A DNA stretch of 64,000 nt from an uncultured Bacteroidales bacterium (GTDB lineage Bacteria > Bacteroidota > Bacteroidia > Bacteroidales > Paludibacteraceae): contig CACZUS010000001.1 in assembly GCA_902784425.1 (NCBI GenBank), forward strand, positions 42,337 through 106,336, read 5' to 3'. Positions 20,770 through 31,803 of this stretch are shown here, one piece after another. The notes beneath the pieces were generated by a model, which was given only the letters and a program-made list of their open reading frames with translations, made no database searches and had not been told where the DNA came from. Both the position numbers and the translations under genes were made by a program. The first letter of the stretch is position 1; every line of letters begins with the position of its first letter.

Positions 20770-20882
20770 TTTTATATTTATTACAAACAGCTTTCGAATC
20801 TCGCATTGTGAATGATTGCAATTTAATCCTCTCTGCAATCGCGGCTGCACGGTTCAAGGTTTGGAATTAATAATTAAAAAAA
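20770..20882 (+). promoter_or_regulatory. Long rpsK-rpsD spacer with a hairpin, possible S4 leader
   Basis: GATTGCA (20814-20820) pairs with TGCAATC (20834-20840) around a 13-nt loop, inside a spacer that is more GC-rich than the neighbouring gaps. S4 often controls its own gene or operon in other bacteria. A role here is inference; I see no terminator T-run, so a translational mechanism would be more likely. Confidence 0.35.
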
Positions 20883-21488
20883 ATGGCTAGATACACAGGT
20901 CCAAAAACTAAGATTGCGCGTCGTTTTGGAGAACCAATTTTCGGTCCAGATAAGATTTTGGCAAAAAGAAATTTTCCTCCCGGACAACATGGCGTAAATA
21001 GAAGAAAGAAGTCTTCTGAGTACGGTATTCAGTTGAACGAGAAGCAAAAGGCTAAATATACTTATGGCGTTTTAGAAAGACAATTCCGTAATTTGTTCGA
21101 GAAAGCTTCTGCAACAAAGGGTATTACCGGTGAGGTATTATTACAATTATTGGAGACTCGTCTTGATAATGTAGTTTATCGTTTAGGTATAGCTCCTACA
21201 AGAGCAGCAGCTCGTCAGTTAGTATCACACTGCCACATCGTTGTTGATGGTGAGGTGGTTAATATTCCTTCATACTCTGTTAAACCAGGTCAAGTAGTAG
21301 GTGTTCGTGAGAGATCTAAATCTCTTGAGGTTATCGAAAATTCTTTGACAGGTTTCAATCATAGCAAATATGCATGGTTAGAGTGGGATGGATCTTCATT
21401 GTCTGGTAAATTCTTGCATCTTCCAGAAAGAGCTGATATTCCAGAGAATATTAAAGAACAATTGATCGTCGAACTTTACTCTAAATAA
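20883..21488 (+). CDS. rpsD: 30S ribosomal protein S4
   Basis: Primary 16S rRNA-binding protein, 201 residues. It begins [21 protein letters not shown] and contains the S4 RNA-binding motif ([26 protein letters not shown]). The N-terminal part has no zinc-binding Cys cluster. It precedes rpoA by 10 nt. Confidence 0.99.
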
Positions 21489-24578: not shown

Positions 24579-25238
24579 ATGAAAAAGATTATACTATTAC
24601 TTGTTTCATTGTGCACGATAAACTTATATGCACAGGATGAGGAGGCAGAGACGGTTAAATCTGCTTACTATTCTAATGGGTTTAAAATGCGAATCGATAG
24701 AATCACATTCGGATTTAATACGATATACGATTGGGATAAAAAAGATCGATTTCTAAATTTCACGAATGGTCTTTCTCTGAACTTTGGATACCAATGTAAC
24801 AAACATCTCTATTATGGAATAGGAACCGAAATCAGAGCGAAACTTGATTTTTGGTTTACTACTCTTTCTTTGCCTATTTATGCAGATGTCCAGTTAAGTG
24901 TCTCTGATAAAAGAGTATCTCCCTATTTCGGTCTGAAGTTTGGTGGATGTGTTAGTTTGAGAGGTGATTGTAATGCTTATTATAATCTCTACCAACGAGA
25001 GGATGGAAAGTGGTTTCATGAGGATTTTAGTAATAAAGACGAACAAAAAGGATTATATATTCATCCCGAAATAGGTGTTAGATTTCGAATCGTCGGGATC
25101 GGTATAGGTATGCAATTTGTTGAAAGTGTAAGAGAATCAATAATTTACAATAGTCAATTTCAAACTGTAGAAAAGGAAAGACACAAAAGTTTTGATGTGG
25201 GTGGTAATTTGATATTGTCTTTCCGTATTGGTCTGTAA
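24579..25238 (+). CDS. Predicted outer-membrane beta-barrel protein
   Basis: 219 residues with a signal peptide (MKKIILLLVSLCTINLYAQ, cleaved before DEE). The mature part alternates polar and aromatic residues, typical of small 8-strand-type barrels of Bacteroidota, and ends in a barrel-like strand (GGNLILSFRIGL). Motifs such as GYQCNKHLYYGIGTEIRAK and VSPYFGLKFGG fit the porin-like outer-membrane family. No specific function can be assigned. It is probably co-transcribed with the Cys-rich gene upstream. Confidence 0.75.
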   Translation: MKKIILLLVSLCTINLYAQDEEAETVKSAYYSNGFKMRIDRITFGFNTIYDWDKKDRFLNFTNGLSLNFGYQCNKHLYYGIGTEIRAKLDFWFTTLSLPIYADVQLSVSDKRVSPYFGLKFGGCVSLRGDCNAYYNLYQREDGKWFHEDFSNKDEQKGLYIHPEIGVRFRIVGIGIGMQFVESVRESIIYNSQFQTVEKERHKSFDVGGNLILSFRIGL

Positions 25239-25254
25239 ATTTATTTTCTTAGAA

Positions 25255-25286
25255 TTTGGTGAATTAATAAAAAGCACATATATTTG
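25255..25286 (+). promoter_or_regulatory. Promoter of the leu operon
   Basis: TTTG (25255-25258) and TATATTTG (25279-25286) are 20 nt apart, a full consensus match. The predicted start near 25292 leaves a leader of about 200 nt before leuA. That leader begins with a small hairpin (AAAGAGG at 25295-25301 with CCTCTTT at 25312-25318). Confidence 0.8.
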
Positions 25287-25338
25287 TCCCCGAAAAAGAG
25301 GTGCATAATTTCCTCTTTCCAAAAAAGAAAAAAACAGA

Positions 25339-25401
25339 ATGAATTTTATAATTAACATTAACATTATTTTCATTATTCTCTTGCGTAGCTTGAGGAAGTG
25401 A
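25339..25401 (+). CDS. Ile/Leu leader peptide of the leu operon
   Basis: A 20-codon open frame reading MNFIININIIFIILLRSLRK. Seven of 20 residues are Ile and three are Leu, with the Ile codons mostly ATT and Leu-Leu adjacent (CTC TTG). Its end overlaps the first arm of an antiterminator hairpin, the geometry of a ribosome-controlled attenuator. The peptide itself is not expected to have a function; ribosome stalling on it when charged tRNA-Ile or tRNA-Leu is scarce is the signal. No Shine-Dalgarno is seen, as is common here. The composition, place and overlap together make chance unlikely. Confidence 0.8.
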   Translation: MNFIININIIFIILLRSLRK

Positions 25402-25468
25402 GAATGTGTGTGTTATATTTAAAGATATTGAGCCTTTCTCACTTCCCGTGAGAAAGGCTTTTTTTTTA
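25394..25468 (+). promoter_or_regulatory. Attenuator of the leu operon (antiterminator and terminator)
   Basis: The terminator is a perfect 12-bp stem, AGCCTTTCTCAC (25431-25442) with GTGAGAAAGGCT (25448-25459), 5-nt loop and a run of T to 25468. The competing antiterminator is GGAAGTGAGAA (25394-25404) with TTCTCACTTCC (25436-25446), 11 perfect pairs that use the left arm and loop of the terminator. The leader stop codon (25399-25401) lies inside the antiterminator arm. A ribosome that finishes the leader hides that arm, so the terminator forms. A ribosome stalled on the Ile/Leu codons leaves it free, so leuA is transcribed. Confidence 0.88.
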
Positions 25469-25492
25469 CGGTGTTTTTAAATTTATACATAT

Positions 25493-26995
25493 ATGAGCGA
25501 TAGATTATTTATTTTTGACACAACACTTCGAGATGGAGAGCAAGTTCCTGGTTGCCAGTTGAATACAATTGAAAAGATTCAAGTGGCAAAACAATTGGAA
25601 TTGTTAGGTGTTGACGTTATTGAAGCAGGATTTCCTATTTCTAGTCCTGGTGATTTCAATTCGGTAATAGAAATATCTAAAGCAGTAACATGGCCTACGA
25701 TTTGTGCTTTAACCAGAGCAGTGGAAAAGGACATCGATGTGGCTGTAGATGCTTTAAAGTTTGCAAAACACAAGCGAATACATACGGGTATTGGAACATC
25801 TGATTTGCACATTAAGTATAAATTTAATTCCACACCAGAAGAGATAATTGAAAGAGCTGTTTCGGCGGTGAAATATGCTAAGAAATTTGTTGAGGATGTT
25901 GAGTTTTATGCGGAAGATGCGGGCAGAACAGACAATGAATATTTAGCTCGTGTGACAGAAGCCGTTATCAAGGCTGGTGCTACAGTGGTTAATATCCCTG
26001 ATACCACGGGATTCCGTATTCCTTTTGAGTATGGAGAGAAGATAAAGTATATTATGGAACATGTGGATGCTTTATCTGCAGGGAAGGCAATCTTATCTAC
26101 TCATTGCCATAATGATTTAGGAATGGCAACGGCCAATACTGTTGCGGGTGTCTTAAATGGTGCCCGTCAGGTGGAGGTGACTATCAATGGAGTGGGAGAG
26201 AGAGCTGGAAACACTTCATTGGAAGAAATTGCCATGATTTTTAAAACTCATCCAGATTTAAATATTGAGACTAATATTAACACGACCAAGATTTATCAGA
26301 CGAGTCGAATGGTTTCCAGCCTAATGAATATGCCTGTTCAGCCGAACAAGGCAATCGTCGGTAAGAATGCCTTCGCTCATTCGTCTGGAATTCATCAGGA
26401 TGGTGTTTTGAAAAATGCGGAAACGTATGAAATTATGGATCCTAAGGATGTCGGAATTGATGATAATGCAATTGTTCTGACGGCAAGAAGCGGTCGCGCT
26501 GCATTAAAGCATCGCCTACATGTGTTAGGTGTTGATGTTGATGGAGAGAAGCTCGATTCACTGTACGAGGAGTTCTTAAAATTAGCGGATAAGAAGAAAG
26601 AGTTGAATGATGATGATATCCTTATGCTTGCTGGTGTGGAAAGAACAAGAGACCATCACATCAAATTAGACTTCTTACAGGTTACAAGTGGTTTAGGTGT
26701 TCGTCCGGTTGCTAGCATCGGACTGGACATTGCAGGAGAAAAATTTGTCGCTGCATCATCTGGAAATGGTCCGGTGGATGCTGCAATCAAGGCTCTGAAA
26801 GTGATTATAAAAAGAAATATGCTACTCAAGGAATTTACGATACAAGCCATTAATAAGGGAAGTGATGATATCGGAAAAGTTCACATGCAGGTTGAACATG
26901 ATGGTGCTGTTTACTATGGATTTGGTGCAAACACTGATATCGTAACGGCTTCTGTAGAGGCGTATATTGATTGTATAAATAAATTTAGAAAGTAG
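25493..26995 (+). CDS. leuA: 2-Isopropylmalate synthase
   Basis: First committed step of leucine synthesis: 2-ketoisovalerate plus acetyl-CoA to 2-isopropylmalate, 500 residues. The catalytic signature [13 protein letters not shown] is at residues 8-20, and the metal-binding HCHND with the [14 protein letters not shown] motif follows in the DRE-TIM barrel. The C-terminal part from about residue 390 ([20 protein letters not shown]) is the LeuA regulatory domain, which binds leucine in known enzymes. First structural gene after the attenuator; 23 nt before leuC. Confidence 0.97.
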
Positions 26996-27018: not shown

Positions 27019-28413
27019 ATGGGAAAAACATTATTTGATAAAATATGGGATGCTCATGTCGTGTCTCAGATTGAGGATGGACCTACCGTCCTGTATATAG
27101 ATCGCCTTTACGGTCACGAGGTGACCACTCCTCAGGCTTTTGACACACTTAGAGATAAGGGTATAAAGGCTTTCCGTCCGGAACGTATCGTGGCAATGCC
27201 TGACCATAACACTCCGTCAGATCAGCAGGATGAAATTCATGATCCTGTGGGGAAAAAACAGGTGGAGACATTAAAGGCGAATTGCCAGGAATTTAATATT
27301 AAACACTTCCCTATGGGGTCGAAAGACAATGGAATTATCCATGTTGTTGGTCCTGAAAAGGCTCTTTCTCTTCCTGGAATGACTATTGTGTGTGGCGATT
27401 CTCATACCTCTACTCATGGCGCTGTTGGTGCGATTGCAATGGGTATCGGAACAAGTGAGGTGGCTCAGGTCTTGGCTTCTCAGTGTATCCTTCAGTCTAA
27501 ACCTAAGACGATGCGTATAAACATTGAGGGTACGTTGAATCCGGGTGTGACGGCTAAGGACGTTGCATTATATATCATGGCTAAAATGACCACTTCTGGG
27601 GCAACGGGTTATGCTGTTGAATATGCAGGTAGTACAATTCGTAATATGTCGATGGAAGGTCGTCTGACCCTTTCCAACTTGTCAATCGAAATGGGTTCTC
27701 GTGCAGGATTGATTGCCCCTGATGAAACTACATTCGCCTACTTGAAAGGTAGAGAATTTGCGCCTAAAGGTGCAGAATGGGATAAAGCGGTGGAACAATG
27801 GAGAAAATTGAAGAGTGACGACGATGCGGTATTTGACAAAGAGGTTACTTATCGTGCGGAAGATATTGAACCTCGTATCACTTATGGTACGAATCCAGGT
27901 GCAGGTATCGCTATTAATGAGTCAATACCTACTTTGAATGAGATTCCATCTTCTGAAAAGACTCAGTTTATAAACATGTTGGAATATATGCAGTTGAAAG
28001 AGGGACAAAAGTTAGAAGGTGTTCCTGTCGATTATGTCTTTTTAGGTGCTTGTACCAATGGAAGAATCGAGGATTTCCGTGCATTTGCATCGATCGTTAA
28101 GGGAAGGAAGAAGTCCCCTAATGTAGTCGCTTGGTTGGTGCCAGGCTCATGGTTGGTTCGTCAGCAAGTCATAGATGAAGGTATTGATGTTGTTCTGAAA
28201 GAGGCTGGCTTTGAACTGAGATTACCATCTTGTTCATCTTGTTTGGCTATGAATCCTGATAAAGTGCCTGCTGGTAAGTTGGCTATTTCCACAAGCAACC
28301 GTAATTTCGTCGGTCGTCAAGGTCCGGGCGCACGTACTGTTTTAGCATCACCTTTGGTGGTTGCCGCAAGTGCAGTTACAGGAAAAATCACGGATCCAAG
28401 AAAGTTAATATAA
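27019..28413 (+). CDS. leuC: 3-Isopropylmalate dehydratase large subunit
   Basis: Aconitase-family isomerase subunit, with LeuD converts 2- to 3-isopropylmalate (and citramalate to 3-methylmalate in organisms with the citramalate route), 464 residues. The 4Fe-4S ligands are visible: Cys345 in [10 protein letters not shown] and Cys405 and Cys408 in CSSCLAMN. Other family motifs are [14 protein letters not shown] and [20 protein letters not shown] 138-nt gap with a palindromic repeat separates it from leuD. Confidence 0.98.
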
Positions 28414-28551: not shown

Positions 28552-29178
28552 ATGAGTAAACAAAAATTTGATATAATACAGTCAACATGTATTCCTATTG
28601 GAATCGATAATTGCAACACGGATCTGATTATCCCTGCTCGTTATTTAGCGAGTACGACGCGCGATCCTAAATTCTTCGGAGATGCTTTCATGCGTGATCT
28701 TCGTTATGATGAAAACGGGAATGTTAAGCCAGATTTCGTGATGAACCATCCTGATTTTTCGGAGACTCCACATAAGGGCGTCCATGAGATTATCGTAGGT
28801 GGACAGAACTGGGGCTCCGGTTCGAGTCGTGAACATGCCGCTTGGGCTATCGCAGGTTATGGCGTACGGGTTGTGATTTCCAGTAGTTTTGCTGATATCC
28901 ATAGAAACAACCTTCTGAATTGTTTTGTGCTCCCTGTCGTTGTCAGTCGGGAGTTTCAACAGGAACTCTTCCGATGCATAGAGGAAAATCCTAAGATGCA
29001 AGTCAGAGTTGACGTGCCCAATCAAACAGTAACCAATTTGGCTACGGGTCATAGTGAACATTTTGAAATAAATAGTTACAAGAAATATTGTCTGATGAAC
29101 GCTTTGGATGATATCGATTTCTTGCTCGAAAATAAAGAGAAGATAGAGGAATGGGAACAGAAAAGGGAAAATATGTAA
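28552..29178 (+). CDS. leuD: 3-Isopropylmalate dehydratase small subunit
   Basis: Swivel-domain partner of LeuC, 208 residues, normal length. Motifs are CNTDLIIPARYL near the N-terminus, GGQNWGSGSSREHAAWA (the substrate-binding loop) and SSFADIHRNNLLNCFVLP. Its last 28 bases overlap the start of the citramalate synthase gene, indicating coupled translation. Confidence 0.98.
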   Translation: MSKQKFDIIQSTCIPIGIDNCNTDLIIPARYLASTTRDPKFFGDAFMRDLRYDENGNVKPDFVMNHPDFSETPHKGVHEIIVGGQNWGSGSSREHAAWAIAGYGVRVVISSSFADIHRNNLLNCFVLPVVVSREFQQELFRCIEENPKMQVRVDVPNQTVTNLATGHSEHFEINSYKKYCLMNALDDIDFLLENKEKIEEWEQKRENM

Positions 29179-30722
29179 CAATAATGGACACGACACTCCG
29201 TGATGGGGAACAAACCAACGGAGTGAGTTTCGTGCCACATGAGAAGTTGATATTGGCGCGCACCCTCCTTTTGGACGCTAATGTAGATCGAATAGAGGTG
29301 GCATCAGCTCGCGTGAGTGATGGAGAAAAAGAGGCTGTCTCAATGATTTGCAATTGGGCAAAGGGTGTGAATTGTCTTCATCGAATTGAAGTCTTGGGTT
29401 TTGTCGATGAAACTTCAAGTATTGATTGGATAAAGGAGACGGGATGCCAGTGTGTCAATTTGCTTGTGAAAGGATCACTCAGACATTGCTCTGAGCAATT
29501 GAAAAAAAGTCCGGAAGAGCATCTTCATGATGTTTTGGACACTCTTTCATACGCGCAAAAACAGGGTATGCGAGTTAACCTCTATTTGGAGGATTGGAGT
29601 GGTGGCATAAAGGATAGTGCGGAATATGTATTCTTTTTGATGGATCATCTTAAAGATCAGAAGATAGAACATTTTATGCTTCCTGACACGTTGGGTATAT
29701 TGACGCCAGATCAGACCTATCGTTGTGTGAAGTTGATGACCGATCGTTATCCTAATCTCTCGTTCGACTTCCATGCGCATAATGATTATGATTTTGCTGT
29801 GGCAAATGCGATGGCAGCGATACAGGCGGGTGCTAATGGTTTGCATACAACCATCAATGGGTTGGGCGAACGGGCAGGTAATGCTCCTTTGGCAAGTGTT
29901 CAAGCTGCACTGAAAGATCATTATCATGTTCAAACTGGCATTAATGAGTCCAAATTAATGGAGATATGTCATTTGGTTGAGTCGTATAGCTGCATCGCAA
30001 TACCACCGAATAGACCTGTCGTGGGAGAAAGTGTCTTTACGCAGGTAGCGGGCGTGCATGCGGATGGCGATAACAAATCGGGATTGTATTGTAACGGTTT
30101 GCTTCCTGAACGTTTTGGCAGAAAACGCGAATATGCGTTGGGTAAAAATAGCGGGAAAGCCAATATCCTTAAGAACCTTGAGGAGTTGGGCCTCGCCCTT
30201 ACACCTGAACAAACCAAGGCTGTCACAAAACGAATCATCGAGTTGGGGGATAAAAAGGAACTCGTTACGCAAGAAGATCTCCCTTATATAGTGGCCGATG
30301 TGGTTAAACATTCTGCCCCTGATGATCATGTGAAGTTGGATAGCTATATGGTGAGCACCAGTTATGGACTAAAGCCGTTGGCCAGTGTTCGTCTTGAGAT
30401 TGATGGAAAATCTTATGAAGAGACTGCAACGGGTGACGGACAATATGATGCGTTCGTTCGTGCGGTAAGACATATCTATCGAGATAAATTACAACGTAAA
30501 TTCCCTTGGTTGACAAACTATGCTGTAAGCATTCCACCCGGCGGTCGTACCGATGCCTTGGTGCAAACCAGTATCTCATGGACATTCGATGGGAAAAGTT
30601 ATCGAACGAGAGGTTTGGATGCTGACCAGATGGAAGCAGCTATCAAGGCAACCTTTAAAATGTTGAATCTGATAGAGGACTTGTACACACAAGCGCCTGA
30701 GAGAACGAAAGAAAATAAATAA
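29151..30722 (+). CDS. cimA: Citramalate synthase / LeuA-family enzyme
   Basis: 523-residue DRE-TIM enzyme of the isopropylmalate synthase superfamily. The signature [14 protein letters not shown] is at residues 11-24, with FHAHNDYDFAVANA and NGLGERAGNAPLAS further on. The opening with [15 protein letters not shown], the length and the place in a leu operon that already has leuA fit the citramalate synthase class, which condenses pyruvate and acetyl-CoA to citramalate. LeuCD and LeuB then carry it to 2-ketobutyrate, a precursor of isoleucine. The C-terminal third is a LeuA-type regulatory domain (YMVSTSYGLKPLASVRLEI). A second isopropylmalate synthase is the alternative; substrate cannot be proven from sequence. 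The start overlaps leuD by 28 nt. Confidence 0.85.
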   Translation: MGTEKGKYVTIMDTTLRDGEQTNGVSFVPHEKLILARTLLLDANVDRIEVASARVSDGEKEAVSMICNWAKGVNCLHRIEVLGFVDETSSIDWIKETGCQCVNLLVKGSLRHCSEQLKKSPEEHLHDVLDTLSYAQKQGMRVNLYLEDWSGGIKDSAEYVFFLMDHLKDQKIEHFMLPDTLGILTPDQTYRCVKLMTDRYPNLSFDFHAHNDYDFAVANAMAAIQAGANGLHTTINGLGERAGNAPLASVQAALKDHYHVQTGINESKLMEICHLVESYSCIAIPPNRPVVGESVFTQVAGVHADGDNKSGLYCNGLLPERFGRKREYALGKNSGKANILKNLEELGLALTPEQTKAVTKRIIELGDKKELVTQEDLPYIVADVVKHSAPDDHVKLDSYMVSTSYGLKPLASVRLEIDGKSYEETATGDGQYDAFVRAVRHIYRDKLQRKFPWLTNYAVSIPPGGRTDALVQTSISWTFDGKSYRTRGLDADQMEAAIKATFKMLNLIEDLYTQAPERTKENK

Positions 30723-30741: not shown

Positions 30742-31803
30742 ATGAAATTAAAAATTGCTGTATTACCAGGAGATGGTATAGGACCAGAAATCTCTGAGCA
30801 AGGAGTCAATGTAATGACTGCCGTATGTAATAAGTTTGGACACGAAGTGAGTTATACTCATGCTATATGTGGAGCCGATGCAATAGATAAAGTAGGGGAT
30901 CCATTCCCAGAAGAGACCTTTAAGATTTGTATGGAGGCAGATGCAGTACTCTTTTCTGCCGTAGGTGATCCTAAGTTTGATAATAATCCTGCAGCCAAGG
31001 TGCGTCCCGAACAAGGATTGTTGGCAATGCGTAAGAAATTAGGATTGTTTGCTAATATTCGTCCGATACAGACTTTTGATTGTTTGATTCATAAAAGTCC
31101 GCTGAAAGATGAGTTGGTGAAAGGTGCTGATTTCATCTGTATCCGTGAATTGACGGGTGGTATGTATTTTGGAGAGAAGAAAGAGGGAAGTGATTTTGCA
31201 TACGATACGAATGCGTATAGCAGAGAAGAGGTAGAGCGAATTTTGAAGGAGGCATATAAATATGCACGTCAGCGCAGAAAACATTTGACAGTTGTGGATA
31301 AGGCTAATGTGTTGGCATCTTCTCGTCTGTGGCGTAAGGTGGCACAAGAGATAGCACTCCAATATCCAGATGTGACGACTGATTACATGTATGTTGACAA
31401 TGCAGCAATGCGCATGATTCAGGAACCAACATTCTTTGATGTGATGGTGACGGAGAACACTTTCGGTGATATCCTTACAGATGAGGGTTCTTGTATTACA
31501 GGTTCGATGGGCTTGCTTCCTTCCGCATCGACAGGAGAACACACACCAGTGTTTGAACCGATTCATGGATCATGGCCGCAAGCAAAGGGTTTGAATATTG
31601 CCAATCCGTTGGCTCAGATTCTTTCGGTCGCTATGTTGTTCGAATACTTTAATTTAAAGGAGGAAGGTAAATTGATTCGAGAGGCTGTTGATGCTTCCTT
31701 AGATGCTAATGTCCGTACACCAGAAATCCAGGTTGAAGGAGGTGCTAAGTATGGCACAAAAGAAGTGGGACAGTGGATTGTGGATTATATTGATAAGAAA
31801 TAA
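30742..31803 (+). CDS. leuB: 3-Isopropylmalate dehydrogenase
   Basis: NAD-dependent oxidative decarboxylase, third enzyme of leucine synthesis, 353 residues. It opens with [14 protein letters not shown] and has [13 protein letters not shown], the catalytic region with VDNAAMRMI, and [25 protein letters not shown] near the substrate site. Last gene of the operon; a hairpin terminator follows after 35 nt. Confidence 0.98.

Follow-up and report, generated by a model that had tools for sequence, protein, structure and literature searches.

Ribosome-mediated attenuation is a textbook mechanism in Enterobacteria. For Bacteroidetes/Chlorobi, Vitreschak et al. are said to have proposed candidate attenuators of branched-chain and other amino acid genes in 2004, in which case the class was predicted then, and the Bacteroid-trp RNA (RF01692) is presumably a trp attenuator. 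In the excerpted text of a 2010 paper, no leader-peptide system was known outside Proteobacteria and Actinobacteria besides the one described there (PMC2965389). Excerpts on Flavobacterium psychrophilum report strong clues for leader-peptide attenuation ahead of amino acid operons and include pheA and hisG in a set of conserved structured 5' elements (PMC9723704), those on B. thetaiotaomicron report short open reading frames (ORFs) reminiscent of leader peptides in long 5' UTRs (PMC7366714), and two RNA regulogs are listed for Bacteroidaceae (PMC3766115). Control of branched-chain synthesis by a leader peptide or upstream ORF is described, again in excerpts, for the Corynebacterium ilvBNC leader (PMC10272879, PMC11857589). 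A reading of the present locus from its letters only (hereafter the sequence-only reading) had called such attenuators much less described in Bacteroidota, which is a fair statement, as the excerpts of PMC9723704 and PMC7366714 mention leader-peptide attenuation in general terms.

The window analysed here, that is the whole stretch of 64,000 nt (contig CACZUS010000001.1 of assembly GCA_902784425.1, positions 42,337–106,336, forward strand), comes from an uncultured Bacteroidales bacterium of the Paludibacteraceae and contains an operon, leuACD-cimA-leuB, which is very probably controlled by a classical ribosome-mediated transcription attenuator. The parts of this attenuator and the selection on them come from the sequence and its comparison with relatives, and from these we infer ribosome stalling, termination and a response to amino acids.

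Anatomy of the leuA leader

The operon, which lies on the forward strand as do all features below, comprises leuA (2-isopropylmalate synthase, 25493–26995; NF002086 and TIGR00973), leuC (27019–28413; TIGR00170), leuD (28552–29178; TIGR00171), cimA (29151–30722) and leuB (30742–31803; TIGR00169), and an attenuator-like leader stands before this cognate set of biosynthetic genes. All assignments are above profile cut-offs except cimA, a probable citramalate synthase whose best match is NF042433, the CimA of Leptospira (626.7 bits, E 2.7e-188, under the cut-off of 950), and which scores 174.6 bits against TIGR00977 (under the cut-off of 450). The leuD and cimA frames share 28 nt, an overlap which suggests coupled translation. 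Elsewhere in the window, the S4-Bacteroidia ribosomal protein leader RF03139 matches at 20814–20847 (48.7 bits), shortly before a frame at 20883–21488 that looks like rpsD, as recognised by sequence.

The sequence-only reading had proposed for this leader a promoter, a 20-codon frame rich in Ile and Leu, and an 11-bp antiterminator and a 12-bp terminator that exclude each other, with the leader stop codon inside the antiterminator arm, and this anatomy is confirmed. The Bacteroidota-type promoter (25255–25286) consists of TTTG at 25255–25258, which we take to be the upstream box, and, after 20 nt, TATATTTG at 25279–25286. The -7 box of flavobacterial promoters is given as TAnnTTTG in the excerpted description (PMC9723704), and in all 53 relatives described below TAnnTTTG occurs no more than 120 nt before the leader ATG (5.6 expected from letter shuffles), the two-box form being kept in 35 of 53 (0.22 expected). 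A 7-bp hairpin at 25295–25318 lies close to the predicted start of the leader RNA, ahead of the leader ORF. The latter, MNFIININIIFIILLRSLRK, runs from the ATG at 25339 to the TGA at 25399–25401 and contains seven Ile and three Leu among its 20 codons; no Shine-Dalgarno sequence was seen before it.

The antiterminator (2:3) pairs 25394–25404, within which the leader TGA sits, with 25436–25446 in 11 Watson-Crick pairs (-15.3 kcal/mol as an isolated helix). Its 3' strand overlaps the 5' strand of an intrinsic terminator (3:4) at 25430–25467, in which the conserved motif CCTTTCTCAC occupies 25433–25442. The terminator helix has 12 bp (25431–25442 with 25448–25459), or 13 with the G-U pair 25430/25460, an energy of -20.9 kcal/mol as an isolated helix, and a run of nine T at 25459–25467. 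The two helices compete for 25436–25442 and are thus mutually exclusive. The sequence-only reading had missed a further element, a 1:2 hairpin in which the leader codons themselves pair with the antiterminator strand (-20.5 kcal/mol): strand 1 at 25353–25384, covering Ile codons 7, 9, 10, 12 and 13 and Leu codons 14 and 15, pairs with strand 2 at 25388–25415, which encloses all of 25394–25404. With this anti-antiterminator there are three mutually exclusive states rather than two.

The region 25290–25480 folds with a z-score of -5.4, none of 200 shuffles being equally stable. In 3000 dinucleotide shuffles of 25239–25492, judged by criteria chosen with the sequence already known (a leader of at least nine Ile+Leu, a stem of at least 9 bp with a T run and an antiterminator of at least 10 bp, in the right order), a leader arose in eight, a terminator in nine and the joint arrangement, which the real region passes, in none.

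Conservation among Paludibacteraceae

LeuA was found in 99 of 150 sampled family genomes and 80 loci were taken from the genome collection; leuA upstreams of at most 450 nt were read at 173 family loci, namely 110 first loci (two of them duplicates, and some with upstreams ending at a contig edge) plus 63 from the 69 remaining family genomes. An exact copy of CCTTTCTCAC followed by a T run occurred in 71 of the 173 upstreams compared to none expected, a copy with up to two mismatches in 105 compared to 1.6 in shuffles and, in a loose test permitting three mismatches, in 115 compared to 26.4. The motif with its T run was missing from 58 upstreams, some of them truncated by contig ends, and 111 loci combined the strand-3 motif with a leader of at least six Ile+Leu. 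Within the window's own genome the strand-3 sequence is found in five places, one of which is the leuA attenuator; the other four, around which only ORF maps were viewed, were taken for chance occurrences because a reversed-pattern control gave nine.

From 91 leaders less than 93% alike, 53 were hand-picked by eye for alignment (A1), the 38 omitted being divergent, doubtful or with a frame that extends beyond strand 2 (e.g. L036, L041). The comparison of relatives that the sequence-only reading had called for bore it out, in that both stems persist through compensatory changes and the Ile/Leu-bearing leader frame is conserved across these 53 family leaders. The terminator is paired in 88.7% of alignment cells, with two-sided changes in nine of its 12 pairs and in 41 cells, compared to 10.7 in shuffles, which ignore relatedness, and nine in the best slid version. 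The antiterminator is paired in 85.2% of cells compared to at most 55.6% in slid versions, with two-sided changes in 27 cells against 11.6 in shuffles (none of 500 as high, relatedness again being ignored). Two other counts for the antiterminator on this alignment did not exceed shuffles, namely pairs changed on both sides (five, compared to 4.3) and further pair types (18). The complementary triples vary together: L138, L148 and L163 combine a TAA stop in place of TGA with CTTAC or CTTGC in place of CTCAC in strand 3, preserving the pairing; L009 has the same GTAAG/CTTAC change, but its TAG stop lies further upstream.

The 1:2 hairpin is more stable than in shuffles of the coding part (z < -1 in 46 of 53 leaders, mean z -2.27) and than in synonymous codon shuffles with the peptide fixed (z < 0 in 52 and z < -1 in 36 of 53, mean -1.79). 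These energies were used because columns of the MAFFT alignment A1 show no clear covariation for this helix (73.3% paired), AU repeats permitting slides of two columns that still give 70.3 and 64.6%. RNAalifold on the same alignment yields the terminator only, since one structure must be chosen.

Comparison of similar leaders in 61 pairs gave 173, 200 and 335 changes at codon positions 1, 2 and 3. Of the Ile or Leu codons that differed, 113 were synonymous, 32 were swapped between Ile and Leu and 54 were lost; over all differing codons, non-synonymous differences outnumbered synonymous ones (302 to 189), which counts against an attenuator. Judged by the comparison as a whole, the leader frame and the antiterminator are under selection. 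In a subgroup (L036, L041, L048, L051, L063 and L110) the leader frame passes through strand 2 to a stop further downstream, and the step involving the stop codon may differ there. Automatic leader calls for L142, L150 and L151 were rejected as upstream ORFs rather than true leaders, and we regard as doubtful the picks at L017, L023, L105, L111, L156 and L174 in the family, at L218, L223, L226 and L229 in the order, and at L294 in the ilvD/leuA codon comparison.

Leader codons and operon gene content

The leader has more Ile than Leu codons, which the sequence-only reading had tied to the presence of citramalate synthase in the operon. In 97 of the 99 family genomes cimA could be considered: it lies on the same strand 13–5792 bp downstream of leuA in 76, on another contig in 13 and far away in three, and five were without a match. 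Among the genomes with cimA in the operon and a called leader (n = 58), 57 leaders contain at least two Ile, the exception being the doubtful leader L174. The same holds in the order sample described below, in which 30 of the 36 passing leaders belong to operons with cimA, each of the 30 containing two or more Ile.

Conversely, all eight leaders of genus g33 have zero or one Ile and five or six Leu, and cimA is away from leuA in six of these eight genomes, the contigs of G104 and G129 being too short to tell; no Ile leader was found directly before the separately placed cimA in this genus. Genome G174, with leuACDB without cimA, has a leader of no Ile and six Leu, while G311 and G206, with leuA alone, have zero and two Ile compared to nine and eight Leu. 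Two further contigs (G160, G203) were too short to place cimA. The link between Ile codons and citramalate synthase is therefore supported, with 0–2 Ile in three lineages that have no cimA among the leu genes and one clear exception, G153 (L310), which has leuACDB without cimA and a leader of five Ile and three Leu; these are counts of genomes, not of independent losses on a tree.

Leaders across Bacteroidales and before other operons

LeuA was found in 74 of 198 genomes of an order sample, and 60 of the 68 full-length loci outside the family were taken. A terminator was found in 40 of the 60 upstreams and none was given in the other 20, while all criteria (terminator, leader of at least six Ile+Leu, antiterminator of -11 kcal/mol or better) were passed by 36. 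The same pipeline on dinucleotide shuffles gave a terminator in 6.15 of 60 and the full arrangement in 0.15 of 60. Some of the remaining upstreams carry GCCATTCTCA in strand 3. Many related bacteria thus appear to keep the leuA switch, usually with codons matching the products of their genes.

A covariance model (R1) built from alignment A1 and run over 31 genomes gave matches in 24; besides leuA leaders, it matched ahead of an IlvD gene in eight genomes (L269, L271, L272 and L274–L278; two of the eight genes were scored by profile and the rest recognised from their N-terminal sequence). With 30 loci from 37 genomes with a match, 22 of 29 ilvD upstreams yielded a leader call, 17 of them distinct. 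These contain 69 Val in 384 residues compared to 12 in 1113 for the 53 leuA leaders, and none of the 17 has fewer than two Val; the ilvD leaders were picked by a score on Ile+Leu+Val, and leuA leaders under that same score have at least two Val in three of 53. No convincing ilvD leader was seen in the close relatives G103 and G054. PF00920 is missing from the assembly of the window's own genome yet present in all 15 other genomes of the genus that were searched; as ilvC is also present (contig C42), a true lack of ilvD was rejected, and its absence is probably an assembly gap. In another genome (G157, L315) a single cluster comprises leuACDB, then ilvD and one more frame, with no convincing leader.

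Thirteen weak R1 matches had no locus assigned, four of them being opposite-strand echoes of listed matches and nine being fetched for inspection. Their E-values, from 1.9e-4 to 0.03, point to likeness of design and not to common descent. Three (L320, L321, L324) lie before prephenate dehydratase (pheA) and have Phe/Tyr-rich leaders, such as MRNFNYTFFFFFYFYFKSRSGIVLS and MRKFLFTYTNFYYFWFFKQKRGLYV; the enzyme scores slightly under its curated cut-off, and that of L321 is unscored with a gene start nearly identical to L320. Another (L322, in G103) lies before hisG-hisD-hisC with the leader MLNTHHHNHHHYQR, six of whose 14 residues are His. The contigs of L325 (Phe/Tyr-rich leader) and L326 (Leu/Val-rich leader) end ahead of any gene. 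No leader is clear at L327, which precedes glutamate synthase, and L273, L323 and L328 look like false matches. The window's own genome has a pheA homologue (72% identical), preceded on contig C27 (L329) by the leader MIIISIHNGYFFYFFYHFIS, with five Phe and three Tyr, and by a hairpin that a T run follows; this is probably a second attenuator of the genome, so that several such switches, the leuA one among them, seem to exist. A search of this genome with the G103 hisG leader as DNA query gave no match, an uninformative outcome for a query that lacked a positive control.

Taken together, the sequences make it likely that leader-peptide attenuation is a general control of amino acid operons in Bacteroidales, with an order-wide unnamed family at leuA and ilvD and kindred leaders at hisG and pheA, and with codons tuned to the products: Ile and Leu for leu operons that include cimA, mostly Leu for those that do not, Ile, Leu and Val at ilvD, His at hisG, and Phe/Tyr at pheA.

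Proposed mechanism and alternative explanations

With charged tRNA-Ile and tRNA-Leu in ample supply, the ribosome would reach the leader stop and mask strand 2, so that the terminator forms; were the leader left untranslated, 1:2 would form and sequester strand 2, again with termination as the outcome. Under a shortage of Ile (or Leu), the ribosome would stall on codons 5–15 and mask strand 1, strand 2 would pair with strand 3, and the polymerase would proceed into the operon. Given a ribosome footprint of about 12–15 nt downstream of the A site, which we assume for the stall positions, a stall on Ile codons 5–13 would mask strand 1 and leave strand 2 free; a ribosome at Leu 15 would extend into strand 2, and at Leu 18 or the stop codon it would mask that strand. 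Since the Ile codons would be best placed for full release of strand 2, the signal is probably mainly Ile, then Leu.

A simpler account would make the hairpin the terminator of the upstream gene and the small ORF a product of chance in AT-rich DNA; a same-strand gene does end at 25238, 100 nt ahead of the leader, and Ile codons are AT-rich. However, among the 111 loci searched this gene was found only in the window itself (L001) and at L004/L032, which are one contig present twice, and a gene so seldom found with the leader argues that the hairpin is not simply its terminator. The attenuator is retained where that gene is not found, a promoter stands between them (in its two-box form in most aligned relatives), the arrangement is not produced by shuffling at the locus and hardly so across the order, and the selection on the leader frame and antiterminator speaks against a chance ORF, making this the least probable of the three alternatives, to which we give almost no credence. 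Less improbable, if still very unlikely, is a switch run by a metabolite, tRNA or protein acting on the RNA (a riboswitch, T-box or RNA-binding protein) and not by a translating ribosome. The strand-3 motif is as strongly conserved as a binding site would be, given its exact copies, with a T run, at 71 of 173 loci; yet strand 3 is already constrained by pairing with two partners, and conserved complementary triples have been noted for attenuators in the excerpted text of PMC1262725. The leader codons, moreover, follow the products of the operon, which an aptamer would not need. No Rfam 15 family matches the leader at gathering score, and the 14 sub-threshold matches up to E 10 in 25230–25520 include no T-box (RF00230), Leu_leader (RF00512) or Bacteroid-trp (RF01692), the best being a minus-strand Neisseria sRNA (31.7 bits compared to a cut-off of 51), with Phe_leader at 17.2 bits compared to 55.

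The leader might instead act on translation or mRNA stability, for example through reinitiation at leuA, rather than on termination. This would be compatible with the sequence, and flavobacterial mRNAs are described, in the excerpted text, as lacking Shine-Dalgarno sequences (PMC9723704), which makes initiation unusual. The terminator and its T run are nevertheless well conserved and the leader stop lies 91 nt ahead of leuA, so that we place this account between the other two, as highly improbable. If attenuation by a translating ribosome is the true mechanism, it would imply tight coupling of ribosome and RNA polymerase in a phylum whose translation is described as starting without Shine-Dalgarno sequences. 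Transcription-translation coupling in Bacteroidota could be tested directly on these leaders, because such attenuation depends on a ribosome that follows the polymerase closely. The way in which leader codons change with the genes of the operon would likewise provide a natural experiment on the evolutionary retuning of sensors. More generally, the leu, ilv, his and phe leaders are concrete, testable candidate regulatory RNAs for a large Bacteroidota order in which amino acid control is barely described in the papers covered here.

Comparison with known systems

While the mechanism is already textbook, the leuA leader itself lies outside the Rfam 15 families, and a literature search limited to listings and excerpts brought up no recognised description of attenuation at leuA or ilvD in Bacteroidota. 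The leu and ilvGMEDA attenuators of E. coli and Salmonella share with this leader the end-product codons in the leader ORF, a stop near strand 2, three exclusive hairpins and the same pathway, and the enterobacterial ilv leader likewise adds valine, as does that of Bacteroidales. Unlike leu of E. coli and Salmonella, the leader here has Ile plus Leu codons and the operon includes cimA, no Shine-Dalgarno sequence was seen, the promoter is of the Bacteroidota type and there is no match to RF00512.

Bacteroid-trp RF01692 is also a cis-regulatory RNA of Bacteroidetes, according to an excerpt of PMC2864571; its covariance model finds no match at gathering score, either in the window or at the 10 related loci searched. 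The Corynebacterium ilvBNC leader belongs to a different phylum and stands before different genes, and is likened to the Bacteroidales leuA leader by description, not by sequence. For F. psychrophilum, of the same phylum, the same type of mechanism has been proposed; leuA and ilvD leaders are not named in the excerpts of this work or of that on B. thetaiotaomicron (PMC9723704, PMC7366714), while the pheA and hisG elements named for F. psychrophilum have counterparts among the leaders found here.
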